64,000 nt of DNA from NCBI RefSeq assembly GCF_025399835.1, contig NZ_JAODVR010000001.1:1860001-1924000 (forward strand). The letters run 5' to 3'. The stretch comes from Haloarchaeobius sp. HME9146. GTDB lineage: Archaea > Halobacteriota > Halobacteria > Halobacteriales > Natrialbaceae. The notes beneath the pieces were generated by a model. It was not told the origin of the DNA, ran no database searches, and was given only the letters and a program-made list of their open reading frames with translations. Made by a program: the position numbers and the translations under genes. This document shows, piece after piece, positions 1,512 through 64,000 of this stretch (positions are counted from its first letter, which is position 1; each line of letters opens with the position of its first letter).

Positions 1512-4500
1512 TCGGCATCACCGTCGAACACGCCACCGGTCGAATCGTCGGAATCGTCGTCGGAATCGTCTCCGGTGGCAGCGTCGTCCTCGCCGAAGAC
1601 GGAGTCACCGTCGTTGTCGCCGAAGATGCTGTCGCCGTCGTCAGAGTCGCCGTCGTCGTCTCCGTCCCCGAAGACGGACCCGCCGTCGTCCGGCTCGTCG
1701 TCGGCCCCGAATATCGAGCCCTCCTCGTCTTCGGCGGCGGCCTCGTCGGTCGGGGTGGGCTCGTCTTCACCGTCGTCGGCTGCGCCTCCGAACATCCCAC
1801 CGTCGTCCGGGACCTCCTCGTCGTCTTCATCCTCGGTGAAGAGACCGCTGCCGCCCTCGTCACCGAAGATCGAGCCGACGTCGTCCTCCTCGGCGAAGAA
1901 CGGTTCGTCGTCGGTTCCGAAGAACGCGGTGTCGTCGTCCGGGCGGCCGCTGTCGGTGTCGAACATGGATTCGGTCCCCGTGTCCTCGACCTCGCCGAAG
2001 ATGGGACCGGGGTCCGATTCGTCGTCGCCCATGGAGAACCCACCGTCGTCGCCCGCATCCACAGTACCGCCTGCGCCGCCATCGTCGGGGACTGCGTCGT
2101 CGATGTCCGAATCGTTCGCCGTCGTCGCATCGTCGACGGCGTCGGTCGCCCCGTCTGCCGACGCGGCCGTGGTGTCGTCATCGTCGGTCGCGTCCTCGTT
2201 CTCTATCTCGGCAGCGGCGGCCTCCAGGTCGAGCGTTATCTCCTGTTCCGGTTCCGAGTCGGCCGATTCCGTCGTCTCCGGAAGCGTCTCGCCATCGCCA
2301 TCGTCACCCGTCGTATCGAGTGCCGTCTCCTCGGTGGCACCCGCGTCTGCCGATGCCTCGGCGGTCTCCCCCGATTCGAGCTGTGGGGCGTCCCCGGCCG
2401 CGGGCTCGGTGTCTGCGCTGGCGCTCGCGTCGGCCGTCTCGCCGGAATCGTCACCGAACCCTCCGAATCCGTCGTCGTCACCGAAGTCGAAGCCGCCCTC
2501 GTCGTTGAGCCAGGAGGGACCGTCTTCGACCTCGTCGCCGTCGCTGGAGAACGTGAAGTCGTCCTCGTCTTCGTCACCACCGAGCATGAACGAGCTGTCG
2601 TCGTCGTCGAAGTCGAACTCGTCGTCGGTGTCGGCCTCGATGGTCGGTTCCGCCTCGTCGTCCATCCCGGACCCTGAGAGGGCGGTGTCGACGCCGAGAC
2701 CGCTCAGTTCCTTCCCGCGGTACTCGTCGAACAGCGACTCCTCGGCGCGTTCGAGGATGTCCTGCGAGAGGTTGTACGTCTCGTCGTTCGCGTCCGGGCG
2801 GGGGACCTGCTCTTCGTCCTCCGGGTCGATGTCGATCTCGACGGACTCCATCTCGCGCAGGTCTTCGAGGCTCTCCTCGAGGCGGCCGTTCGCGATGAGC
2901 GTCAGGATGGTGTCCGGGTCGTTGATGTACGCCTGGACCGTCGCGGCCACCTGTACGTACTGGTTCAGCCCGTTCTTGATGAGGTACGCGATGATGACGC
3001 GTCGTTTGAACAGCTCGTCCTGGAGCTTCTCGTAGCTCCACCCGCGGTCGAACTGGATCTCGTCAAGCGTGTTCGAGTCCCCCATCTTGAGGTACTCGTC
3101 CGTCTCCGCCTGCCACTGGTAGACGTCCTGAACGTTGATCTCGTCGTTCTCCGCGTCGTAGTGGTTGATCTCGGTGAGGTTCTTGTTCCGGCGGACCTTG
3201 TTGCCCTGGACCCGGGTCTGGGTCTGGATGGAGACGAGGTCCAGCGCGGTGAACATCGTCTTCGAGACGTTGATGGGGTCGGTCGTGAACCGCTTCAGGA
3301 CCTCACCCACGGAGTCCGCGTGGAACGTGGTGTAGGTGGTGTGACCCGTGGACATGACCTGGAACAGCGTCCGGCCTTCCTCACCACGGATCTCACCCAT
3401 CACGATGTAGTCCGGGCGTTGACGCAGTGCGGCCTCCAGCAGGTCGAACTCGTCGACGTCACCCTGTGCGTCCTCGCTGAACGAGGGACGGGTGACGCTC
3501 GCGATCCAGTTCCGCTGGGGCAGTTCGACCTCGCGCGTGTCCTCGATGGAGACGATCTTCGTGTTCGAGGGGATGAACAGCGAGACCGCGTTCAGGCTCG
3601 TCGTCTTCCCTGACGCGGTACCGCCGGCGAAGATGAGCGATTTGTGGTTCTCGATACAGAGCCAGAGGAACGCCATCTCGTCAAGCGAGAACGTGTTCCA
3701 GTTGATGAGGTCGATGGGCGTGAACGGGACCTCCTTGAACTGACGGATGGTGTAGTTGGTCCCGTGGTCGGACACCTCACGACCGAGGGTCAACTGGGCA
3801 CGAGAGCCGTCCGGGAGGGTCGCGTCGACCTGTGGCCGGCGCTTCGAGATACCCTTGCCGGACCGCTGGGCGAGTTTGACGACGAAGTCGTCGAGCTCGC
3901 GTTCGGCGTGGAAGATGTTCGAGATGATCTGCTCGTAGCCGGAGTGGTAGACGAACACCGGGGAGTGGTACCCGTCGACCGAGATGTCCTCCACGTTGAT
4001 GTCGTGCTTGATGGGGTCGATGCGCTCGTACCCGATGAAATTGCGTTTCAGGTAGTACAGCAGCTTCTCGACCTGGTACTCGTTGAGCTGGTCCGCGTCG
4101 TCGGCGATGACCGCGGGTTCCGGCCGGGCCTTGATACCGTCGAGCTGGACCTCTTCGGGCTCGTCGCTCTCATCTGCCGGCTCGCCGTCGGTGTCGAACA
4201 GCGCTCGAATCTGCTCGACGATTCCTTTGTCGCTGCCGCTGGAGCGGTCGACCTTCTTGAACAGGTCGTATCGGCGCAACAGCCGTTTCGTCTCGCGGTC
4301 GATGACGCCGCGCCGCGCCTCCTCGTCGCCCTCGACGGTGATCTCTTCCTCGGAGTACTTGATCGCGGTCCGGAGCTTCCCGGACATGAACTCCTGCAGG
4401 TCGTCTTCGATCTGGTTGCGGTACGGCTCGATGGCGTAGTACTTCTTCTCGTTCTCCTTCTCGGAGTGGAAGATGATGACGAAGGCGTAGGGTTTGTTGA

Positions 4501-11828: not shown

Positions 11829-12704
11829 TCACCAGAATTTCAGGTTCTGCTTGACTGCTTCGCGCTTGAGCTCCTGGATGTGCTCGGTCAGCGGGATGTC
11901 CTTGGGACACACCTCGGTACAGGAGAACTGGGTCTGGCAGCGCCAGACACCGTGTTCCTGCTCGAGGATGCGCAGTCGGTGTTCTTTCAGCTCTTCCTCG
12001 TTCTCGCGCTCGTCCATGTAGAACCGGTAGGCCTTGTTGATGGCCGCCGGCCCGAGGTACTCGTTGTCCCCTGCGGCGATGTTACACGAGGACATACAGG
12101 CACCACACCAGATACAGCGCGTGGACATCTTGACCTTCTCGCGGTTCTCACGCGTCTGATGCTGCTCCTCACCCGAGGGGACGTCCTCGGACTGGAAGTA
12201 CGGCTCGACCGCGTGCATCTGGTCGTAGAAGTGCTCCATGTCGACGACCAGGTCCTTGACGACCTCCTGGTGGGGCAGGGGCTCGATGCGGACCGGCTCG
12301 GCCATCTCCGAGAGCTGCGTCTTGCAGCACAGGCGCTGTCGCCCGTTGACGAACATCGCGTCGGAGCCACACACCGCCTGTCGGCAGGAGTGGCGGAACG
12401 TCAGCGACGAATCGTAGTGGTCTCGCGCGTACATCAGCGCGTCGAGGACGGTCATGCCCTTCTTGTACGGGACGTAGAAGTCGTCGAAGCGGGGCTCCTG
12501 TTTGTCCTCGACCTCGGGGTCGTAGCGGAAGACCTTGAGGTGGACCGCGTTCTCGGCGGCCTCGAGGTCCTCTTTCGCCTGCTTCTCGGCGTCGCGGAAC
12601 GCCTTCTTGCGCTTCTTCTCGGCCATCCGCTCGTCCTGGTGCGGCTTGCCGCTCGGTTCGACGTCGGTCTCTTCCGTCTCGGTGTCGGGTAGTTGCGTAC
12701 TCAT
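11829..12704 (-). CDS. sdhB: Succinate dehydrogenase iron-sulfur subunit
   Basis: Electron-transfer subunit of complex II. The 291 residues include an N-terminal acidic extension of about 60 residues. A plant-type [2Fe-2S] domain follows (SCRQAVCGSDAM and a later LCC, with the Asp that many SdhB proteins carry in place of a Cys). Next come a [4Fe-4S] motif CIWCGACMSSC near residue 210 and a last cluster motif CTEVCPKDIP near 270. It starts one base after the stop of the membrane-anchor gene sdhD, so the two are tightly coupled. Confidence 0.96.
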   Translation of the reverse strand: MSTQLPDTETEETDVEPSGKPHQDERMAEKKRKKAFRDAEKQAKEDLEAAENAVHLKVFRYDPEVEDKQEPRFDDFYVPYKKGMTVLDALMYARDHYDSSLTFRHSCRQAVCGSDAMFVNGRQRLCCKTQLSEMAEPVRIEPLPHQEVVKDLVVDMEHFYDQMHAVEPYFQSEDVPSGEEQHQTRENREKVKMSTRCIWCGACMSSCNIAAGDNEYLGPAAINKAYRFYMDERENEEELKEHRLRILEQEHGVWRCQTQFSCTEVCPKDIPLTEHIQELKREAVKQNLKFW

Positions 12705-12705
12705 G

Positions 12706-13071
12706 TTAGAGGAACCCGTTCATGACGAGTGCGACTCTGGTGCCCTGTGCGACGAGCAGGAGACCAGCGATGCCCAGCACGCCCTTGACGGCCGTCTTGG
12801 CGGAGCCGCTGATACCCTGATTGACGAGTGCGTTGTAGACCCCGTTGACACCGTGGAACGTCGCCGTCACGAGGAACAGCCACATCGTCGCGAAGTAGCC
12901 GATGTCCTCCATGCGGGCCGACGTGCCGGCGAAGGTGATCTCGAACGCGTGGTGGTAGAAGTGAAGCAGGAAGAAGTGGAACGCGAGCACCACCACGAGG
13001 AACGCAGCCGTGATGCGCTGGAACAGCCAGCCCCAGCCGCCACGCTCGAAGGAGGTCGGTGCGCCCGCCAT
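12706..13071 (-). CDS. sdhD: Succinate dehydrogenase membrane anchor subunit D
   Basis: A 121-residue membrane anchor with three hydrophobic helices. His-rich FHFFLLHFYHHAF and FHGVNGVYNALV segments could supply haem or quinone contacts. I prefer the ATG at 13071, two bases after the TGA of sdhC. A GTG at 13080 in the same frame would overlap sdhC by eight bases and is the alternative. The assignment rests on operon position and topology as much as on sequence. Confidence 0.88.
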   Translation of the reverse strand: MAGAPTSFERGGWGWLFQRITAAFLVVVLAFHFFLLHFYHHAFEITFAGTSARMEDIGYFATMWLFLVTATFHGVNGVYNALVNQGISGSAKTAVKGVLGIAGLLLVAQGTRVALVMNGFL

Positions 13072-13072
13072 C

Positions 13073-13504
13073 TCAGGCACCCCCCAGTCCCGCCATGAAG
13101 GTCGGGACCGACGCGATGATGATGACGCCCGTCAGCACCAGTGACGCGTAGAAGGTCTTGTCCTGCGATTCCAGCCCGATGCCGAGGTCGACCAGCAGCA
13201 GGCGGATGCCGTTGAGGATGTGGAACACGGCGACCGCCAGCAGGCCGACTTCGAGCAGGCGCACGATGAAGATGCCCTCCAGCGTGCTCAGTGTCGTCGA
13301 GTACACGTCGGTGCCCCCGCTGATTGCGCTCGCCGACGCCGTCGACGCTTCGATGGCAGTACTCAGCACGGCGATGTGGGTGAACAGGTATCCGATGAGA
13401 ACCCATCCCGTGAACTTGTGGAATATCCACGCCCACATCCCGGCCGAGAACTCCTTCCAGCGACTGAAGTCCTCGATTAGACCGCGATTGTAAGACTGAC
13501 TCAT
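13073..13504 (-). CDS. sdhC: Succinate dehydrogenase cytochrome b subunit C
   Basis: First gene of the sdhCDBA operon. The 143 residues give three membrane helices. [19 protein letters not shown] contains two His residues in the arrangement of the SdhC haem-binding region, and [15 protein letters not shown] matches the family's second conserved block. With SdhD it would bind haem b and reduce quinone in the membrane. A TATA-like element lies 29-36 bases before the ATG. Confidence 0.92.
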
Positions 13505-26525: not shown

Positions 26526-27131
26526 GTGGCAGAAAACGACGGTCAAGGGGCTGGTAGCTCATCGGACGGCCTCGAGGTGCTCGTCGTCGACGACGAGTCA
26601 CGACTGGCAGACCTCTTCGCGGCGTGGCTCACGACGGAGTACAACGTCGAAGCGGCCTACGACGGGGAATCGGCGCTCGAGCTGATGGAAGAGTCGGTGG
26701 AGATCGTCCTGCTGGACCGACGGATGCCTGGACTCTCGGGTGACGAGGTGCTCGAACGTATCCGGGCGGACGGCTACGACTGTCGAGTGGTGATGGTCAC
26801 GGCTGTCGACCCGGACTTCGACATCATCGAGATGGGCTTCGACGACTACCTCGTCAAGCCGGTCTCGAAGGACGAACTTCTCGATGTCGTCAAGAACGTC
26901 ACCTCACGGTCGGACTACGAGAGCGACATCCAGGAGTACTACTCGCTGGTCTCGAAGAAGTCGCTCCTCGAGTCCGAGAAATCCGAGCGCGAACTCGACG
27001 ACAACGAAGAGTACGCCGAACTGTGTGCGCGTGTCGACGAACTTCGCAACAAGGTCGACGACGCCGTCTCCGGAATGAAAGACCACGACGATTTCGTCGG
27101 GGCGTTCCAGGACCTTCCCGGCGGCAGCTAG
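26526..27131 (+). CDS. HalX-domain response regulator
   Basis: A 201-residue two-component regulator. The receiver domain has VLVVDDES acidic residues, phosphoacceptor Asp in VLLDRRMPGLSG, Thr in VTAVDP and Lys in YLVKPVSKDEL. The C-terminal 75 residues match the HalX domain, a haloarchaeal helical output segment with a Lys/Glu-rich coiled stretch (VSKKSLLESEKSERE). The GTG at 26526 is chosen by TATA spacing. Its 3' end overlaps that of the convergent histidine kinase by four bases, so it may be that kinase's partner. A close paralogue is at 61590-62165. Confidence 0.88.
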   Translation: MAENDGQGAGSSSDGLEVLVVDDESRLADLFAAWLTTEYNVEAAYDGESALELMEESVEIVLLDRRMPGLSGDEVLERIRADGYDCRVVMVTAVDPDFDIIEMGFDDYLVKPVSKDELLDVVKNVTSRSDYESDIQEYYSLVSKKSLLESEKSERELDDNEEYAELCARVDELRNKVDDAVSGMKDHDDFVGAFQDLPGGS

Positions 27132-29167
27132 GCCGGTTTCACGTCCGAGAACTCGAACCGAGCACCACCTTCAGCGCTTTCGACGACGCGGGTCGTCCAG
27201 CCGTGAGCACTTGCTACTTCTCGCACGACCCAGAGCCCGATGCCCAGGCCGTCCTCCGACGTCGTGAACTCCGAATCGAACGCGTTCTCCCGAACCGTTT
27301 TCGGCATCCCCTCGCCGTCGTCGGCGACGTAGAAGCCCGCGGGTCGGGTCAGTTCGGGTTCCTCGGGTGCAGCGTTGTCCTCGCCGGGGAACTCGAAGCC
27401 GCCCGTCGAGACCTCGGTCTCCCCGTCGTCGACTGTGGGGGGTTCGAGCAATCCGACGTCGATGGCGACGTCCTCGCCACCGTGTTCGACCGCGTTCCGG
27501 AACAGGTTCTCCAGCGCCCGCAGGAGCCGGGAGCGGTCGGCCGCGAGACGCATCGACTCACCCACCGTCAGGGTCGCCGACTTGGTATCGACGTTGGACC
27601 ACGCCTCGCGGACGATGTCCTCGAGGTCGGTCGGCTCCGTCTCCGTGACGGTCTGGCCCTGCCGGGCGATGGCGAGCACGTCCGCGACGATGTCCTCCAT
27701 GCGGTCGAGGCCGTCCTCGACGTGCTGGATGTACGTCGCGACCGAATCGTCGGTCTGCTCTTTGACCAGGTCGAGGTAGCCCTGTGAGACCCCGAGCGGG
27801 TTGCGAAGGTCGTGGCTCACGATGCTGGCGAACGCGTCGAGACGTTCGTTCTGTCGCTGGAGCTCCTGTTCGCGCTTCTTCCGTTCGGTGACGTCACGGA
27901 CGACGCCGACGGTCCCGCGGAACTGCTCGTCCTCGAACGGGAGGAGCGCGATCTGGACCTCGCCCGGGAACGTCCTGCCGTCCTTGGTCTCGACGACGAC
28001 CTCCTGGGTCTCGCCTTCCATGCGTCGGTCACGGACCATCCGTCGGATGATGTCACGGCCCGCCGAGATCGACTCGTCGTCGAGGATGATGGAGATGTGT
28101 TCCCCGAGCAGGCCCTCGCGGGAGTAGCCCGTCATCGACATCATCGCGTTGTTGACGGTCATGAAGTGGCCGTCGGAGTCGAGGACGTACATGCCGTCGC
28201 CGACCGTCTCGACGAGGCGCTCGTAGCGACGCAGGACGCGCTCTTGCTGGTCGATGCGCCCGCGGATGGCGATGGTGTCGAGGACGTGCGAGACGCTGCT
28301 GGCGATCTCCCTGACCGCGCTCGTCTCCATCTCGTCGAACCCCTCGTCGTCGTTCGAGTAGACCCCGAGGATGCCGTACAGCTCGTCCTCGTATGCGAGG
28401 GGGGCGATGGCGACCGCGTTGCAGTCGCGCTCGGTCGCGGTCGCCCGCCACGGGACGGCCGCCTCGTGGGCCTCGATGTCGTTGATTATCTGGACCTCGC
28501 GACTGCGCAGCGCCCGGTCGATGACCGACTGGCGACCCGACCGCCCGACCGGGAAGGTCATGCTGATGGGCCAGTCGCCGGTCTCGCTCGCGGCGACCCA
28601 CGGCACGACCTGGCGCTCGCCCCGGTCGTACTCGCCGACCCAGGCGAACTTGTAGCGCCCGCCCAGGGTGAGCTGGTCGCAGACGGCCTCCTCGATGTCC
28701 ATCGGGGAGGACGCGTCGACGAGCGAGCGTTTCACGTCGCGGACGACGTCTTCGGGGCGGTTGCCACCCGGTGGAGCGGCGGTGCCGTGGTTCCTGACGA
28801 CGGAGTTCGCGACCCAGCCGGCGAACGCGTCGTCCGAGCCCGGCGTCCCGATGGAGTCGAGGAAGTCGACGACCTCCATGACGGCGACACCGTCGCCCCG
28901 CTCGGCGTTGTACTCCGAGAGGACGAGCAGCGGGAGGTCGGGATGGCGCTCGCGGGTCGCCTGGAAGATGGCCGGGGAGTCGAGGGCGGTCGCATCGTCG
29001 GCGACGATGCAGTCGAGGGAGCCGTCGTCGAGATGGTCGATGATACCGTCGAACCCCGCCGCGGTCAGCACGTCGACGTTCGGGTAGGACCACTCCAGGG
29101 GTGCCGCCAGCCGTTCGCGTAGCTCGGCGTCGTTGCTGATGACGAGTACGGTGCTGGTGGCGCTCAT
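27128..29167 (-). CDS. Sensor histidine kinase (receiver-like, GAF, PAS, HisKA, HATPase)
   Basis: A 679-residue cytosolic sensor kinase. Residues 1-125 resemble a receiver domain, 170-310 a GAF domain and 320-440 a PAS domain with a PAC stretch (GTVGVVRDVTERKKREQELQ). HisKA follows with phosphoacceptor FASIVSHDLRNPL near residue 450. The ATPase domain has LFRNAVEHGG (N box), ADDGEGMP (G1) and LGIGLWVVREVASAHGW (G2). All catalytic motifs are intact. It is convergent with the HalX regulator and probably phosphorylates it. No membrane helix is seen, so the signal is likely intracellular. Confidence 0.9.
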   Translation of the reverse strand: MSATSTVLVISNDAELRERLAAPLEWSYPNVDVLTAAGFDGIIDHLDDGSLDCIVADDATALDSPAIFQATRERHPDLPLLVLSEYNAERGDGVAVMEVVDFLDSIGTPGSDDAFAGWVANSVVRNHGTAAPPGGNRPEDVVRDVKRSLVDASSPMDIEEAVCDQLTLGGRYKFAWVGEYDRGERQVVPWVAASETGDWPISMTFPVGRSGRQSVIDRALRSREVQIINDIEAHEAAVPWRATATERDCNAVAIAPLAYEDELYGILGVYSNDDEGFDEMETSAVREIASSVSHVLDTIAIRGRIDQQERVLRRYERLVETVGDGMYVLDSDGHFMTVNNAMMSMTGYSREGLLGEHISIILDDESISAGRDIIRRMVRDRRMEGETQEVVVETKDGRTFPGEVQIALLPFEDEQFRGTVGVVRDVTERKKREQELQRQNERLDAFASIVSHDLRNPLGVSQGYLDLVKEQTDDSVATYIQHVEDGLDRMEDIVADVLAIARQGQTVTETEPTDLEDIVREAWSNVDTKSATLTVGESMRLAADRSRLLRALENLFRNAVEHGGEDVAIDVGLLEPPTVDDGETEVSTGGFEFPGEDNAAPEEPELTRPAGFYVADDGEGMPKTVRENAFDSEFTTSEDGLGIGLWVVREVASAHGWTTRVVESAEGGARFEFSDVKPA

Positions 29168-57086: not shown

Positions 57087-57375
57087 AACCCACCCACGAG
57101 GTGTCGGGTGTTAACCGTTCCCGCCTGCCCGTCGTCCGCGCGACTGCCCAGTCGGGGGCGACGAGGGTGCAACGGACGCCTCGCTCTGCATCGGGGGCAT
57201 GTGACATCGGCCACGAAAGGTAAATAGGGTTATTGCGTAGTACGGCACAGTCGCTCAGCCATGCATTCGCCACCATCGACAGGTTGCTCTCTATTTTCGG
57301 CACCGTGGGTGATTGCATGAGCGAGCAAAGCGAGTTCCTGCGAGGCCGCCGGACGGCGGGTCCGGAGGTCGGTAC

Positions 57376-59235
57376 ATGAACGACCGGACACGGACCACGG
57401 AGCGCTCGCTTCCCATCCTCGACCGCGTCGGTGACGCGTTCTTCGCACTCGACACCGGGTGGCGGTTCACCTACATCAACGACCGCGCCGAGTCGATGCT
57501 GAAGCGCTCTCGCAACGACCTCATCGGCCGGGTCATGTGGGACGAGTTCCCCGAGACGGTCGAGACGCAGTTCCCCGAGGGGTTCCACCAGGCCATGGAG
57601 ACGCAAGAGCCGGTCTCCTTCGAGGTGTACCACCACCCGCTCGACACCTGGTTCGAGGCGCGGGCGTATCCCGCGCCGTCCGGACTCTCCGTCTACCTCC
57701 GGGACATCACCGACCGCAAGGACCGCGAGAACGAACTCGCCCAGCACGCCCGGGTCGTCGAGGCGGTCCACGACGGCGTCATCACGGTCGACGACGAGAA
57801 CCGCATCGCCAGCGTGAACGAGGCCATCGAGACCACGATGGGCGCGACCCGGGACGAGCTGGTGGGCGAACCCATCCGCCGCCTCCCCGAACTCGCCTCC
57901 ATCAACGCGGAGGGCGCGATGGCCATGGGCGAAGCTATCGGGAAGATACAGTCCGGCAACGCCCGGCACTCACGGTTCGAACTCGAGTTCACCAACGCCG
58001 ACGGCGAGCAACGCGTCGGTGAGATGCGGATGGTCGCCCTCGGTGAGGGGCAAGCCAGCGTCGCCGGCGTCATCCGGGACGTGACCGAGCAGCGCGAGTA
58101 CGAGCGCATGGTCGGGTCGCTCCACGAGGTCACGCGCTGGCTGTTCCAGGCCGAGGACGCCGCCGAGATCTGTTCCGTGGCGGTCCACGCCGCCGGCGAG
58201 ATGCTCGACCTGCCAATCAGCGGGGTCTGGCTCATCAACGACGAACAGGGCGTCCTCGACCCCATGGCGGCCACGATGGACGCCCACACCGAACTCGGCG
58301 GTCTCCCGCAGTTCTACGAGGGCGAAGGGCTGGTGTGGGACGTCTACCGCGAGGGCGAGGCCCGGGTGTTCGACGACCTCTCCACGGTCGACGGGGTCTA
58401 CAATCCCAATACGCCACTCAACAGCGAGATAATCGTCCCTATCGGGCCACACGGGGTCATGATGACCGGGTCGACCCAGGTCGACGGCTTCGACGAGACC
58501 GACCTCGAACTCATGTCGCTGCTGGCCTCGAACACCGAGGCTGCCCTCGACCGCTCCGAACGCGAGAAACTGCTCCAGGACAGGAAGCAGAGCCTCGCCC
58601 GGCAGTCCGAACGTCTGCGGGCGGTCGCGAACATCCTCTCCGACGACCTGCAATCGCACCTCGACACGGTGGCGAGCGAGTTCCAGGGCGAGGAAGAGGC
58701 CGACGCGGCCGAGACGCTGACCCGCGCCGAGGAGCTGGTCGACGACATCCTCGAGTTCGCCCGCGACCAGACCTCCATCGGCTCGCGCTCCTCGGTCGAC
58801 TTCGAGAGCGCCCTCGCCGACGCCCTCGACGCCTCCATCGCAGAGGACATGACGGTCTACCTCGAGTTCGAGGGTCGCCTGCGGGCCGAGCGCGACCGGT
58901 TCGTCCACATGCTCGAGACCGTCTTCAACGACATCTGCGCCCGGGCCGGCGACGAGACGGCGACGGTCCGCATCGGCCCCATCGAGGACGACGCGACGGG
59001 CCGACCGACCGGGTTCTACATCCTCGACGACGCCGAGAAGATCCCCGAGACGGAGTTCGACAGGGTGTTCGAACCCGCGACGACAGCGGAGTCCGACGAC
59101 GTGGGGCTCGGGCTGGCCGTCGCCCGCGAGATCGCCGAGGCCCACGGCTGGGAGGTCGACGTCTCGACCGGTCAGGCCGGCGGCACGCAGTTCTCTCTGA
59201 CTGGGCTGGTGACGTTCGAAGTCACGCGGCAGTGA
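57376..59235 (+). CDS. PAS-PAS-GAF sensor protein resembling a histidine kinase with degenerate catalytic motifs
   Basis: A 619-residue protein. Residues about 15-120 and 135-235 are PAS domains, 260-400 a GAF domain, and 405-460 a HisKA-like helical hairpin. A HATPase-like region follows. The HisKA acceptor segment reads NILSDDLQSHLD where kinases carry an SHDLRNPL-type motif, so the phosphoacceptor His is gone. The N box is VFNDICARAG, and the G1 box DxGxG is replaced by LDDAEKIPE. A late G2-like GLGLAVAREIAEAHGW remains. This suggests a pseudokinase or signalling scaffold, not a working kinase. The ATG at 57376 is chosen as the first plausible start. Confidence 0.82.
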   Translation: MNDRTRTTERSLPILDRVGDAFFALDTGWRFTYINDRAESMLKRSRNDLIGRVMWDEFPETVETQFPEGFHQAMETQEPVSFEVYHHPLDTWFEARAYPAPSGLSVYLRDITDRKDRENELAQHARVVEAVHDGVITVDDENRIASVNEAIETTMGATRDELVGEPIRRLPELASINAEGAMAMGEAIGKIQSGNARHSRFELEFTNADGEQRVGEMRMVALGEGQASVAGVIRDVTEQREYERMVGSLHEVTRWLFQAEDAAEICSVAVHAAGEMLDLPISGVWLINDEQGVLDPMAATMDAHTELGGLPQFYEGEGLVWDVYREGEARVFDDLSTVDGVYNPNTPLNSEIIVPIGPHGVMMTGSTQVDGFDETDLELMSLLASNTEAALDRSEREKLLQDRKQSLARQSERLRAVANILSDDLQSHLDTVASEFQGEEEADAAETLTRAEELVDDILEFARDQTSIGSRSSVDFESALADALDASIAEDMTVYLEFEGRLRAERDRFVHMLETVFNDICARAGDETATVRIGPIEDDATGRPTGFYILDDAEKIPETEFDRVFEPATTAESDDVGLGLAVAREIAEAHGWEVDVSTGQAGGTQFSLTGLVTFEVTRQ

Positions 59236-59382
59236 TTGTGTGTTCACATATTCTTGGATCTAAATCACTCTGAGTCTGTACATCTTAAATGAAAAACTAC
59301 AGTAGAAGGGGATTGAAATACCAATGGAGCAGCCGAACATTGGAACAGGTATGATGTTGGCCTTCGATTACGTATATCAATA

Positions 59383-60435
59383 TTAGACTTCGTTCCCGTC
59401 GTCATCAATCCATACAATCTCATGCGTCCTTTCAACTGCGTCCTTCGGGTCTAGTCTATCAGGTAAATTGAACTCATCTATACCTTTGAGATCGCCAAAA
59501 TCAAAATTTTGAGGGACATGAATCTCTGAAATATCATACCTCTCGTACACAACAGCGTAATGTTCAAAATTTGATTTAATACTTTTTACAGCATCCCACT
59601 CATTGGCTCCTTTGATTAATTGTTCGATTTTGATGCATTCTTCTGGTCCTTCCATCGAAACGATTCTTTCAGGAGTGTTCTTTGAACGGAAGACAACGTC
59701 GAATTTTATTGGTTGTTTTGAAATTTCCCACCGACGAATCCGTTCGTAATCTCCTGGTGGATACTGAGATTCGTCGTTGTCCTCGGAGATGTCTGGGGTT
59801 GGTAATTCAATGTCTTCATTTTCTAAATCAATCCACATTAGATGAACAGTCTGACGTTCTCCTGGGGCAATATCTCGATAAACTTCATTTTCATCAGCCC
59901 ATCGAGTATAGTATTGAGAATTTTCAAGACTTCCCATTCTGGTTCGAATTGTTGCTTCTTCTGCTGTCTCACGGCCTTGATTGCATATTACTGCATGGAT
60001 ACAGACCGCATTCTCTGCTTCAACCATGTCTATCGGGTCTAGAATATGAAACCTATCTGGATATTTTACAATGTGGTTGCTTGTAATCGTGAGGTACGGG
60101 CGCTGGAAGTGCCTGTTGGCCTCAAATATAACGATTGGAAACGCGCCGATGAGAGAACCGATAAGAATGGGTTGCAATTCGAAAGATTCAATAATTAAAG
60201 CAATTATAAGCATATATAAAACACCAGTCAGTAATACAATAATTTGCTGATATCGGGCATGGGTTCCACCTAGGAATTCAACGGTACGCCAGAGAAATTT
60301 CGCAGGGCTTGTCACATCCGATTCGGAGTAGGGAGACCGTTTGGCCAATCGATTAGTTTGGGTTGGAATTGTGAGCATTAATCCATTAAGGACTAAAGCT
60401 GTAGAAAAAATAACTGAATCAAATCCTTTGACCAC
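59383..60435 (-). CDS. Unknown membrane protein in an AT-rich cassette
   Basis: A 350-residue protein encoded in AT-rich DNA. The first 130 residues contain three hydrophobic segments (VIFSTALVLNGLMLTI, IIVLLTGVLYMLIIALIIES and ILIGSLIGAFPIVIFEA). The rest is a soluble, beta-rich region with an Ig-like pattern (AVCIHAVICNQGRETAEEATIRTRM ... IAPGERQTVHLMW). It is likely anchored in the membrane with its C-terminal part in the cytoplasm or outside. The start is a GTG, because a stop codon lies just upstream in frame. It is divergent from the 60532 gene. No function is recognised. Confidence 0.65.
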   Translation of the reverse strand: MVKGFDSVIFSTALVLNGLMLTIPTQTNRLAKRSPYSESDVTSPAKFLWRTVEFLGGTHARYQQIIVLLTGVLYMLIIALIIESFELQPILIGSLIGAFPIVIFEANRHFQRPYLTITSNHIVKYPDRFHILDPIDMVEAENAVCIHAVICNQGRETAEEATIRTRMGSLENSQYYTRWADENEVYRDIAPGERQTVHLMWIDLENEDIELPTPDISEDNDESQYPPGDYERIRRWEISKQPIKFDVVFRSKNTPERIVSMEGPEECIKIEQLIKGANEWDAVKSIKSNFEHYAVVYERYDISEIHVPQNFDFGDLKGIDEFNLPDRLDPKDAVERTHEIVWIDDDGNEV

Positions 60436-60500
60436 AATATGTCACCATAGAATCCCCCTCCAATTGAAACTTTGTGAGACTGGGCTCTTACGACGCAACG

Positions 60501-60506
60501 TTTATT
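60501..60506 (+). promoter_or_regulatory. TATA-like element for the AT-rich cassette gene
   Basis: TTTATT lies 26-31 bases before the GTG at 60532, supporting a leaderless transcript and that start codon. Confidence 0.45.
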
Positions 60507-60531
60507 CTAATGTTAGCCGTACCCCCAAGCA

Positions 60532-61521
60532 GTGTCAAACGCTGATCCCTTGTACAAGCAGGTTGGCGAATTTATTGAGGATTACCTAAGGGAGGAGCTG
60601 AGCGTTTCTGGAATGCAGCGACTGCATGAAGAGTACTTTTCTGAGACTGTGGACTTTTTAAAGTGGAAGGACGTGATTCAAGAGTACACTCTCAAAAAAG
60701 AGTGGTCAAATAAGGAATTCCAGAGGTTTGTCCAGTACGCAAAACAATTTGTAGCGCAAGATCAACGGACGGTTTCAGAAGTATATTTAACATCTCCTGA
60801 GGTTGGCGGAGTGTTACACGCAAATCCGGATAGATTGGCTGACCAGCATCCATATTCTCCGGATGATGATGATGATGATGGAAGCGGTTTCGTACCTCTG
60901 CATAACTCCAATAGGCAGAATCGGGGCTTATACATTCATGTCCAAAATCAGATTTCAGTTCGATACTCAGGAGATATCGAGCGATATACTCAAGAATCGG
61001 TAATCCCATTCAAATATGATTCAAAACTTGACATTTTAATTGCTGAAAGTACATATCCCCCTGACGTTCAACGATTGAAGTCCGCTTTCGACAGAAATAC
61101 TCAGTATGGTGTTGAAACGTTCTGTGCGAATCTAAGAAAGCCTCAATTCGGCCCAGTAGAGGTTTGTCAACGTATGAATGACATCTCAATAGTATCTGAT
61201 GTCGAATTGACTCATATTGACGTTGAATTTATTGGTCAGACAGTTATTCAGGAGTTCTCTTCAGACTATAATCCACCAAATTCGCCCGAACTCCTACGTG
61301 AGAGCGATTTCTCAACAGAAAATTTCGGCGGCAAAACAAAAATCCGGTCAGCCGAAGCCAAAGTTATCATTGAGGACGAAGTATACGATTTTAAAATTTC
61401 TTCAGGTGACCGTATGTTTTACACTCAATTCATGAACCCTCCAAAGCGGAAAACTGCAAAACAACTACTAAATCAGATTCGATATGAAGTTATACAAATA
61501 TTTGAAGAGGGCAGAAAATAA
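60532..61521 (+). CDS. Unknown soluble protein in an AT-rich cassette
   Basis: A 329-residue protein, mixed alpha/beta, with no hydrophobic segment. It carries a hexa-Asp stretch encoded by six GAT repeats. The C-terminal half reads IRSAEAKVIIEDEVYDFKISSGDRMFYTQF, then NPPKRKTAKQLLNQIRYEVIQI. No family is recognised. Base composition and the A/T-rich third codon positions are unlike the flanking genes, which suggests recent acquisition. It is divergent from the membrane protein at 59383-60435, so the two may act together. Confidence 0.65.
   Translation: MSNADPLYKQVGEFIEDYLREELSVSGMQRLHEEYFSETVDFLKWKDVIQEYTLKKEWSNKEFQRFVQYAKQFVAQDQRTVSEVYLTSPEVGGVLHANPDRLADQHPYSPDDDDDDGSGFVPLHNSNRQNRGLYIHVQNQISVRYSGDIERYTQESVIPFKYDSKLDILIAESTYPPDVQRLKSAFDRNTQYGVETFCANLRKPQFGPVEVCQRMNDISIVSDVELTHIDVEFIGQTVIQEFSSDYNPPNSPELLRESDFSTENFGGKTKIRSAEAKVIIEDEVYDFKISSGDRMFYTQFMNPPKRKTAKQLLNQIRYEVIQIFEEGRK
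60862..60879 (+). repeat. (GAT)6 trinucleotide repeat
   Basis: Six perfect GAT units inside the unknown cassette gene encode six Asp residues. Length variation of such a run would stay in frame in units of three, so it is a candidate variable site but not a phase switch. Confidence 0.7.
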
Positions 61522-61589
61522 AATTGTCTTTGCTGCGTCTACATCCCCTAGTGTGAAACAGATTCGATTTGGTAGAGTGATGCGTGCTT

Positions 61590-62165
61590 TCAATTATCAG
61601 TCCGCGCCAGATCCTGACACACGCGCCGGTAGGCGTCGTGGTCCGACAGTTCGGTGATAGTCTCGTCTATCTGGGCGCGCATCACGTGCAATCGGTCCTC
61701 CAGTCGCGAGTACTTCTCCGACGCCCGGAGCTCGGCTTCGGTCTTCTGGGAGTCGAGCAGCGCCTTCTTCGAGGCGAGCGCGAAGAACTCCTGAATCTGC
61801 TCGTCGTAGGTCGAGCGCAACAACAGTTGGTCGATGATCTCGAGCAAGTCGTCCTTCGAGACGGGTTTGACGAGGTAGTCGTCGAAGCCCATCTGGATGA
61901 TGTCGAAGTCGGGTTCGACCGCCGTGACCATCGCGATGCGGGTGTCGAGTTCGCGGTCGCGGATGGTCGAGAGGACCTCGTCGCCGGAGAGGCCGGGCAT
62001 CCGCCGGTCGAGCAGGACGATGTCGACCTCTTCCGAGATGGCTTCGAGCGCCTGCTGGCCGTTGTACGCCGTCTTGACGGTACACGCGTCTCTCAGCCAC
62101 GCCGCGTACAGGTTGGCGAGGTCGGGTTCGTCCTCGACGATGAGTGCGACTGGACCCTCAGCCAT
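61590..62165 (-). CDS. HalX-domain response regulator, second copy
   Basis: A 191-residue paralogue of the regulator at 26526-27131. Receiver: LIVEDEPDL, Asp in VLLDRRMPGLSG, Thr in VTAVEPDF and Lys in YLVKPVSKDDL. HalX output: an LASKKALLDSQKTEAELR helix. It is convergent with the sensor-like gene at 57376-59235, with an AT-rich cassette in between. The ATG at 62165 is chosen; an in-frame GTG at 62177 and an ATG at 62204 are possible but poorly placed relative to the upstream TATA-like element at 62216-62222. Confidence 0.85.
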   Translation of the reverse strand: MAEGPVALIVEDEPDLANLYAAWLRDACTVKTAYNGQQALEAISEEVDIVLLDRRMPGLSGDEVLSTIRDRELDTRIAMVTAVEPDFDIIQMGFDDYLVKPVSKDDLLEIIDQLLLRSTYDEQIQEFFALASKKALLDSQKTEAELRASEKYSRLEDRLHVMRAQIDETITELSDHDAYRRVCQDLARTDN

Positions 62166-62215
62166 CGCCCAGACCACCCACGTAGGTCTGCATGATAGGG
62201 TCATTGATACTTGGT

Positions 62216-62222
62216 GTATAAG
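62216..62222 (-). promoter_or_regulatory. TATA-like element for second HalX regulator
   Basis: CTTATAC on the minus strand lies about 51-57 bases upstream of the ATG at 62165, implying a short 5' leader rather than a leaderless mRNA. Confidence 0.4.
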
Positions 62223-62314
62223 TAGATGACGGGGGTGCAATCGGTGATAACCACACGAATCTGACCTGACAGGCAACGTGCCCGTCGTGGCGAGAAACAG
62301 CCGCGGGGGCGGAC

Positions 62315-64000
62315 CTACGCGAGTTCGTTCTCGATGACAGCGCGGAGGGTCGCGATCTCGTCTGCGTCGTACCTGAGGTCGGTCCACGAGACGGAGAGTT
62401 CGAGGGCTCCGTCGCGAATGCCCGACCCGATGTGTTCGACCGGGGCGACGCCGTCGAAGGTCTCGCGGACCGCGTCGGGTTCGGTCGTCTGGACGAGGGC
62501 GCGGCCGGGCTGTTCGTGGAACAGCAGGCCGGTCTGCTCGTCACGCGGCGTGAGCCCACCGTTCTCCGGAAGCTCGACCGAGAGCCCGGCGTCGGCGTGG
62601 ACCATCTCCGCCAGCGCGACGGCGAGGCCGCCGTGGCTCACGTCGTGGACCGCCTCGACGTGCTCGGCGTCGGCCACGTCCGCGAGTGCGGCGACGAAGT
62701 CCGCGGGGTTCTCCGGGAGTTCCGGGAACTGGTCGCTGCCGCCAGCCTGTGCGAGGTACTCGGAGCCGCCGAGACGGAACTCGTCGCCCTCCGAGAGCGT
62801 CCGGTCGCCGACGAGCAGCAGTTCACCCTCGGGGGCAGCGTGCATCGGCGGCGCGTCGTAGCCCTCCTTGGTGCCGACCATCATGAGCGTCGGCGTCGGC
62901 GGGATGGGCCCGGACGGCGAGTCGTTGTAGAGGGAGACGTTCCCGCCGACCACGGGCACGGAGAGGTCGGCACACATCTCCGCGAGTCCGTCGACGATTC
63001 CCTTGAAGCCGCCGTACACGTCGGGCTTCTCCGGGTTGCCGCCGTTGAGACAGTCGACCGCGGCGAGCGGGGTCGCGCCCTTCGCCGCGATATTGGTTGC
63101 GTTCTCCAGGGCGACCGCGCGAGCCCCGTCGAAGGGTGCACACTCGGTCCACAGCGGGTCCGAGCCAGCCGACAGGGCGAGACCCTGACCGGCCTCGCGG
63201 ACCGCGACCAGCGCCGAATCGTCGCCCGGCAGCACGCTGGTCCGGTTACCGACCTCGTGGTCGTACTGGCGGTACACCCAGCGCTTGGACGCCGTGGTCG
63301 GGCTGCCGACGACTGCCTCGAACGCCTCGGGCAGGTCGACGTCGGGCAGGTCGGTCTCGGGGACCGGCGGCTCCTCGTGGGGCAGGTCGTTCATCGGCGC
63401 ACCGTCGCCGAGGTACTCGGCATCGACCGAGACGACCTCCTCGCCGTCGAAGGTGCAGACGTAGTCGCCGTCGGTCACCTCGCCGATGACCGAGCAGCCG
63501 AGGTCGAACCGTTCTGCGACCTCGCGCACGCGCTCGACGTTCTCTTCCGTGACCTCGTACACCATCCGCTCCTGGGACTCCGCCAGGAGGATCTCCAGCG
63601 CGTTCATGTTCGGCTCGCGCTGGTGGACGCGTTCGAGCTCGATTCGTGCCCCGAGCCCGCCCTTGGCGACGAGTTCGCTGGAGGCACCGCCGAGGCCGGC
63701 CGCGCCGAGGTCGCGAGCCGATTCGACGAGATGCTCCTCGACGAGGACCTCGTTGGCCTCGATGAGCAGTTTCTCGGTGTAGGGGTCACCGACCTGGACC
63801 GCAGGGCGGTCCTCGGTCTCGGCGTCCTCGCTCAGGTCCTCGCTCGCGAAGGAGGCACCTCCGAGGCCGTCGCGACCCGTCCCGTTCCCGACGAGGACGA
63901 GTTTGTTGCCCGGCTCCTGTGCCTCGGCCGTGATGAGGCGGTCCGCGTCGAGCAGGCCGACGCAGGCCACGTTCACCAGCGGGTTGCCCTCGTAGTCGGG
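62315..64000 (-). CDS. purL: Phosphoribosylformylglycinamidine synthase, PurL subunit, N-terminus outside window
   Basis: Catalytic synthetase subunit for the fourth step of purine synthesis: converts FGAR to FGAM with ATP, using ammonia from glutamine. About 561 C-terminal residues are visible, and the frame continues past the right edge of the window. The VACVGLLDADRLITAEAQ segment, ATNIAAKGATPLAAVDCLNGGNPEKP, VVGGNVSLYND and HDVSHGGLAVALAEM are PurL signatures of the two ATP/AIR-synthase-like halves. The protein should be about 715-740 residues, so some 160-180 N-terminal residues are missing. Confidence 0.93.
   Translation of the reverse strand, partial: PDYEGNPLVNVACVGLLDADRLITAEAQEPGNKLVLVGNGTGRDGLGGASFASEDLSEDAETEDRPAVQVGDPYTEKLLIEANEVLVEEHLVESARDLGAAGLGGASSELVAKGGLGARIELERVHQREPNMNALEILLAESQERMVYEVTEENVERVREVAERFDLGCSVIGEVTDGDYVCTFDGEEVVSVDAEYLGDGAPMNDLPHEEPPVPETDLPDVDLPEAFEAVVGSPTTASKRWVYRQYDHEVGNRTSVLPGDDSALVAVREAGQGLALSAGSDPLWTECAPFDGARAVALENATNIAAKGATPLAAVDCLNGGNPEKPDVYGGFKGIVDGLAEMCADLSVPVVGGNVSLYNDSPSGPIPPTPTLMMVGTKEGYDAPPMHAAPEGELLLVGDRTLSEGDEFRLGGSEYLAQAGGSDQFPELPENPADFVAALADVADAEHVEAVHDVSHGGLAVALAEMVHADAGLSVELPENGGLTPRDEQTGLLFHEQPGRALVQTTEPDAVRETFDGVAPVEHIGSGIRDGALELSVSWTDLRYDADEIATLRAVIENELA

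Follow-up and report, generated by a model that had tools for sequence, protein, structure and literature searches.

A foreign two-gene cassette in a Haloarchaeobius chromosome, probably cargo of temperate haloarchaeal viruses and possibly a RexAB-like exclusion module

In the present work, we describe a 2,354-bp AT-rich cassette of two divergent genes, A and B, that lies between a histidine kinase gene and the HalX response regulator gene facing it in Haloarchaeobius sp. HME9146. We interpret the cassette, at a probability that we put at roughly 45%, as a RexAB-like viral exclusion module of temperate haloarchaeal viruses, with an exclusion mechanism proposed by analogy with known systems. 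This interpretation draws together the predicted RdgC fold of B, the multi-helix membrane protein encoded beside it, the carriage of related pairs as virus cargo near regulator and integrase genes, and the tolerance of single or broken partners. An earlier sequence-only reading of this DNA had suggested a small two-gene unit, possibly of a defence or conflict type, and that suggestion fits the provirus setting of the relatives and the RdgC-like and membrane make-up of the two products.

An inserted cassette between two convergent host genes

The window analysed here is a stretch of 64,000 nucleotides (positions 1,860,001 to 1,924,000 of contig NZ_JAODVR010000001.1) from a genome (G000; assembly GCF_025399835.1) of 3 contigs. 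The features under study, in window coordinates, are as follows.

57313..59235, + strand: left flank, PAS-PAS-GAF-HATPase histidine kinase (Pfam); host gene outside the module
59236..61589, no strand: inserted AT-rich cassette, between the stop codons of the kinase and regulator genes; absent from four congeners
59383..60435, - strand: gene A, 350 aa, with an Ig/FnIII-like beta-sandwich (about residues 112-266) after three transmembrane (TM) helices; RexB-like role proposed
60436..60531, no strand: divergent intergenic region of 96 bp, presumably holding both promoters
60532..61521, + strand: gene B, 329 aa, soluble; four-helix domain (residues 6-76) and RdgC-like two-domain part (residues 88-299); RexA-like role proposed
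61590..62387 (longest ORF), - strand: right flank, HalX response regulator (Pfam); host gene, with a likely true start at 62163

The sequence-only reading had described the flanks as a kinase-like gene and a facing HalX regulator, with which Pfam agrees, and had correctly recognised a three-helix membrane protein with a beta-rich part (A) and a soluble protein (B) in divergent arrangement. The two gene starts are 96 bp apart. The cassette begins immediately 3' of the kinase stop codon, and the inserted DNA contributes the stop codon of the regulator, which ends in ARTDN here versus ARTD in the nearest congener. A search of the two cassette ends for a target-site duplication or terminal inverted repeats turned up nothing longer than an 8-bp chance match, and no integrase or repressor gene adjoins this copy. 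We set aside the idea that an entire provirus has decayed at this position, because the cassette holds genes A and B, both full length, plus about 150 and 68 bp of flanks and nothing more.

Each of the five further species of the genus that were compared has the kinase (82-91% DNA identity), and in four of them it is separated from the regulator by a gap of 38-42 bp. These empty sites, for which the sequence-only reading had proposed to look, place the cassette exactly at the junction of the two convergent genes, and it is present in one of the six species compared. In the nearest congener (G003; 91%), the gap is 379 bp and is occupied by a different insert (L012, positions 2737-3115), an unrelated GC-rich stretch with a hydrophobic ORF of 100 aa. 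That a sister species carries another insert at the same junction suggests that the junction is a permissive insertion spot. It also bears on the order of events: direct gain of the cassette in this lineage is likely, and it is possible that the cassette instead replaced another insert.

The GC content of the cassette is 0.409, whereas 567 stretches of the same length from the rest of the window average 0.658 (SD 0.024, minimum 0.597), and nowhere else in the window is the GC content low. The base counts on which the sequence-only reading had relied in calling the cassette AT-rich and its surroundings GC-rich (22 G or C of 60 at bases 61021-61080 and 40 of 60 at 58801-58860) are exact. That reading proposed a recent insertion; the empty sites support the insertion, but the composition does not date it. 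Related modules have a GC content of 0.39-0.47 in all relatives, whatever the host. Given that the family is AT-rich wherever it is found, the low GC content shows foreign origin and not recency.

The window also contains a second response regulator/histidine kinase pair at 26615-28276, which the sequence-only reading had pointed out. Its regulator-like and kinase-like matches lie on opposite strands, and its members are 31% and 48% identical to the flanking pair.

Relatives of the pair and their viral surroundings

Relatives of gene B occur in G081 (two copies), G021, G085, G077, G390 and G423 (Natronococcus pandeyae; two copies), and two further copies lie on one IMG/VR viral contig. The distribution is patchy, at 6 of 391 genomes of the class and 6 of 125 of the family. 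The relatives are 19-26% identical to the B protein of the window and mostly 29-40%, at most 84%, identical among themselves. A divergent partner lies 49-154 bp from B in 11 of 11 copies, the window copy included (gene calls in the relatives were made with an ORF heuristic), and the pair thus recurs as a unit in different genomes and insertion sites, as the sequence-only reading had proposed to look for. Among the 10 copies outside the window, the partner is a TM protein with a beta part in seven (one of them cut by an insertion sequence [IS]) and a beta-only protein in three. The partners take three forms: one of the window-A type (G423 and the viral contig; truncated in G081), one with TM helices and a small beta domain (G021, G390, G423 and the viral contig), and a beta-only form of 117-120 aa (G081, G085 and G077). 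In G085 and G077, a separate TM gene lies on the other side of B.

The two genes do not always survive together. G002, which belongs to the same genus as the window, has an A relative without B, adjoining an integrase (L026, 7968-10087); in G081, an A gene is broken by an IS and B is intact; and in G085, B is frameshifted or broken and the partner is intact. At L021 (11226-13590), the A-type gene is split by an IS with a transposase at 11844-13442, and A-type sequence resumes at about 13528. At L028 (9077-10097), B is in two overlapping frames (a frameshift or a real split), with the break between its two RdgC-like domains. Separately, phrog_22396 and phrog_22721 both match members of the B family and are possibly the two halves of B.

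The module lies near small winged-helix genes in L021, L024, L025, L046 and L047, and at these same loci tyrosine integrases are close by where the flank is long enough to see. A head-protein gene is found nearby in L025, and the winged-helix gene pair in L047 matches phrog_2440 (transcription regulation). The last of these loci is the viral contig, IMGVR_UViG_3300026992_000007, which carries two A/B-type pairs, an integrase and the two phrog_2440 regulators; its packaging ATPase shares 95% identity with the ATPase of Natrinema versiforme icosahedral virus 1 (NVIV-1; Simuloviridae), which marks the contig as an SNJ1-like virus or provirus. B, the small beta partner and a companion gene (C, see below) each match PHROG families of unknown function. 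A tblastn search with A and B of phage and plasmid records, the phage collection of which includes NVIV-1 and SNJ1, returned no match. On the strength of the proviral and viral surroundings of its relatives, the pair is very probably mobile cargo of temperate haloarchaeal viruses, which in the window stands alone.

As a side observation, the two pairs in L047 are of different subtypes and lie side by side with a short second integrase gene between them, making this a candidate cargo hotspot.

Architecture of the two proteins

Gene B encodes a protein without TM helices. Its AlphaFold model is weak (mean pLDDT of 54), with a fairly confident helical bundle at residues 1-76; the models of both A and B were built on 3-5 sequences. 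In a Foldseek search of the PDB, the best match of the B model was RdgC (E of 0.04, probability of 0.82), and among viral structures it was a phage "recombination-associated protein" (probability of 0.99). With VIA-align, the N-terminal domain superimposed on the pyrin-like domain of CENP-N (Z of 6.0; rmsd of 2.7 over 68 aa) and the rest of B on RdgC and CENP-N (Z of 4.7 to 5.8; CENP-N beta domain, 4.7 to 4.9). Matches of B to the CENP-N architecture, at Z of 4.7 to 6.4 on a low-confidence model, fall short of the Z value that the tool itself treats as reliable. The query sequences of E. coli RdgC and human CENP-N were checked against PDB entries.

Profile comparison points the same way. An hhalign comparison of 10 B sequences with 16 RdgC sequences (E. 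coli, P. aeruginosa and 14 from phages) gave a score of 37.8 over 191 colinear columns, aligning RdgC 12-249 with B 88-299. The associated P value of 2.2e-4 is that of one planned comparison, RdgC having been picked for this test after the fold search, and the fold model and the profile test share some sequences. The hhalign probability, 45%, is that of a remote match, and the likeness extends over both the center and the base domains of RdgC. Column shuffles (150-200) reached at most 21.9 and reversed profiles 21.3; A profiles scored no more than 15.4 against B, and the C profile 18.9. With a colinear score this far above the shuffles, B is, as judged from its profile, a remote relative of RdgC that has gained an N-terminal helical domain and has no counterpart of the RdgC tip helices. 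A ring-shaped dimer with nonspecific DNA binding would be expected of an RdgC-fold protein.

The relationship lies beneath the reach of Pfam. The Pfam RdgC model (PF04381) matched none of nine B members at E values up to 5 (E. coli RdgC scores 420 bits), and the RexA model (PF15969) matched none of the B members. When A, B and their relatives were compared with Pfam, NCBIfam and PADLOC, no usable match emerged, PADLOC giving nothing at E values up to 1, and PDB sequence searches with A, B and C profiles returned E values above 0.1 throughout. A match of B to phrog_21912 ("DNA binding protein"; E of 0.009) was dropped because it was confined to the window protein and absent in its eight aligned relatives. 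By hhalign, B gave no signal against CENP-N, nor against lambda RexA or the actinophage RexA-like proteins (P of 0.5 to 0.8), and RexA is not among the listed fold matches of the weak B model. However, RdgC and the actinophage RexA-like proteins likewise fail against lambda RexA by profile, so the RexA test is low powered and says little about mechanism.

Judged by hydropathy, the product of gene A has three TM helices (at about residues 5-23, 64-82 and 85-103), beyond which it is rich in beta structure. Its model is also weak (mean pLDDT of 46). The beta-sandwich is of the Ig/FnIII type and is best matched by WxLIP (Z of 9.0), then, near a Z of 7, by an archaeal surface-protein domain and transglutaminase domains; as the search matches Ig/FnIII-like domains of many unrelated proteins, it assigns a fold class only. 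One A relative has a weak CARDB match. Across the A relatives, K and R are abundant in the loops before TM2 and after TM3, and the loop joining TM2 to TM3 is acidic or neutral, from which the positive-inside rule would place the beta domain probably in the cytoplasm. The beta-only partners, which have no TM helices, fit a cytoplasmic role. Between A and RexB, there is no sequence or fold link.

Candidate functions of the pair and of a companion gene

The RexA/RexB system of phage lambda excludes rival viruses, an activity familiar in lambda for a long time and recognised more recently in actinophages. In its crystal structure, lambda RexA is an RdgC-like DNA-binding dimer related to Iml3/Chl4; its partner is the four-helix membrane protein RexB, and the genes are encoded beside that of the cI repressor (PMC11077077). 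Like the lambda system, the archaeal pair combines a soluble protein with a (predicted) RdgC fold and a small multi-helix membrane protein, and it is carried by temperate viruses. Outside the window, where a multi-TM gene also adjoins it, the gene for the putative RdgC-fold protein has such a neighbour in 7 of 10 copies, one of these membrane genes being truncated by an IS, and a beta-only partner in the other three. Carriage in a lysogeny region near repressor and integrase genes is seen in L021, L024, L025, L046 and L047 but not for the window copy. The differences are also clear. RexA and B do not match in sequence; the extra N-terminal helical domain belongs to B; A has an Ig-like domain that RexB lacks; and the archaeal genes, in an archaeal host, are divergent and not in an operon with a repressor. 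These differences, the weakness of the models, and the lack of an integrase or repressor beside the window copy count against the RexAB-like reading.

A further parallel is gp44/gp43 of Gordonia phage CarolAnn, a proven defence pair in which both genes are required and neither is toxic alone, with a repressor gene adjoining and an integrase nearby (PMC6426606). This pair and gp30/gp31 of Sbash, both RexAB-like defence systems of actinophages, resemble A/B in having a soluble protein of similar length (370-372 aa, versus 318-359 here) and a membrane partner, in being provirus cargo and in tolerating single partners. Unlike A/B, they form operons, their four-helix partner lacks a beta domain, and they have no profile match to B. 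RdgC itself (PF04381) is the top fold match and is colinear with B over the range given above, but B differs in its helical N-terminus, a gap at the tip helices, its membrane-protein partner and a score below Pfam detection. CENP-N and CENP-L (Chl4/Iml3) have the RdgC fold in common (PMC4080450). B may resemble them, through the matches of its low-confidence model to the pyrin-like and beta domains of CENP-N; unlike RdgC, CENP-N gives no sequence signal.

Under the RexAB-like reading, the cassette would be a mobile cargo unit of temperate haloviruses, found here by itself at the chromosomal junction of two convergent host genes. As a dimer with the RdgC fold, located in the cytoplasm, B would bind DNA or detect infection and would act as a sensor or switch, presumably through direct contact, on A, a three-helix membrane effector with its Ig-like domain toward the cytoplasm. 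Arrival of a competing virus would then lead, through A, to an effect on the membrane or on energy, and infection would abort. If this is correct, RexA/RexB-style exclusion of rival viruses extends to archaeal viruses, in sequences that are no longer recognisable; phrog_22396 and phrog_27536, both of "unknown function," join the virus-virus conflict repertoire; and the RdgC/RexA/CENP-N fold is extended to the Archaea. The system is small, and Natrinema, used with SNJ1-type viruses, is among the tractable hosts in which it could be tested.

Among the alternatives, the best placed, albeit unlikely, is that B is a DNA clamp and A its membrane anchor, together aiding the partition or replication of an extrachromosomal provirus, with the chromosomal copy as a leftover. 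The RdgC and CENP-N/L folds do bind DNA, B would have a membrane anchor beside it, and the ICTV abstract describes SNJ1-like proviruses as extrachromosomal. However, three loci have a beta-only partner without TM helices beside B, the pair is solitary in a chromosome here, and neither NVIV-1 nor SNJ1 has a B gene detectable by tblastn. Next in order, and likewise doubtful, is that the cassette is a leftover of a decayed provirus without present function in its host. The loss of integrase and repressor and the occurrence in one of six species would accord with this, but neither ORF is truncated, each aligns colinearly with relatives of only 20-30% identity, and the spacing of the divergent promoters has been retained. 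Somewhat less probable again is that B alone modulates lysis-lysogeny or recombination as a nonspecific DNA-binding or anti-RecA-type protein, which A only tunes. RexA does not need RexB to stabilise the lytic state, and RdgC curbs RecA (PMC11077077); repressor-like regulators also lie near the B genes in five loci. Against this, the divergent partner is never lost from beside B in the 11 copies, and the solo chromosomal copy has no switch on which to act. A toxin-antitoxin system, in which the product of one gene is harmful to the cell and that of the other protective, would suit a small, mobile and tightly spaced two-gene unit but is very improbable, given that A stands alone in G002, is IS-broken in G081 and has a broken B beside its counterpart in G085, and that neither gene matches toxin or antitoxin families.

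In addition to A and B, some loci include gene C (phrog_18169; about 230-260 aa), which lies alongside the pair at five genomic loci and on the viral contig and is absent from the window. Against the RdgC profile, C scored 27.4 (its shuffles, at most 20.2), with a weak RdgC likeness in its C-terminal half. C may thus be a further RdgC relative, but since shuffles of other small profiles reached 26, we regard this as a lead only. A more speculative proposal, which we consider improbable, is that temperate haloviruses encode a new RdgC/CENP-N-like family (B, with a death-fold-like N terminus) that forms with C a heterodimeric DNA clamp, as CENP-N does with CENP-L, and signals to the membrane effector. 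Such a clamp would make the unit an immune module of archaeal viruses and a relative, among prokaryotes, of an inner-kinetochore pair. The copies of gene C are located at the following positions.

L022, 8193-8939: gene C
L023, 11054-11833: gene C
L024, 7328-8062: gene C
L025, 10883-11578: gene C
L046, 9491-10243: gene C
L047, 2606-3283: gene C
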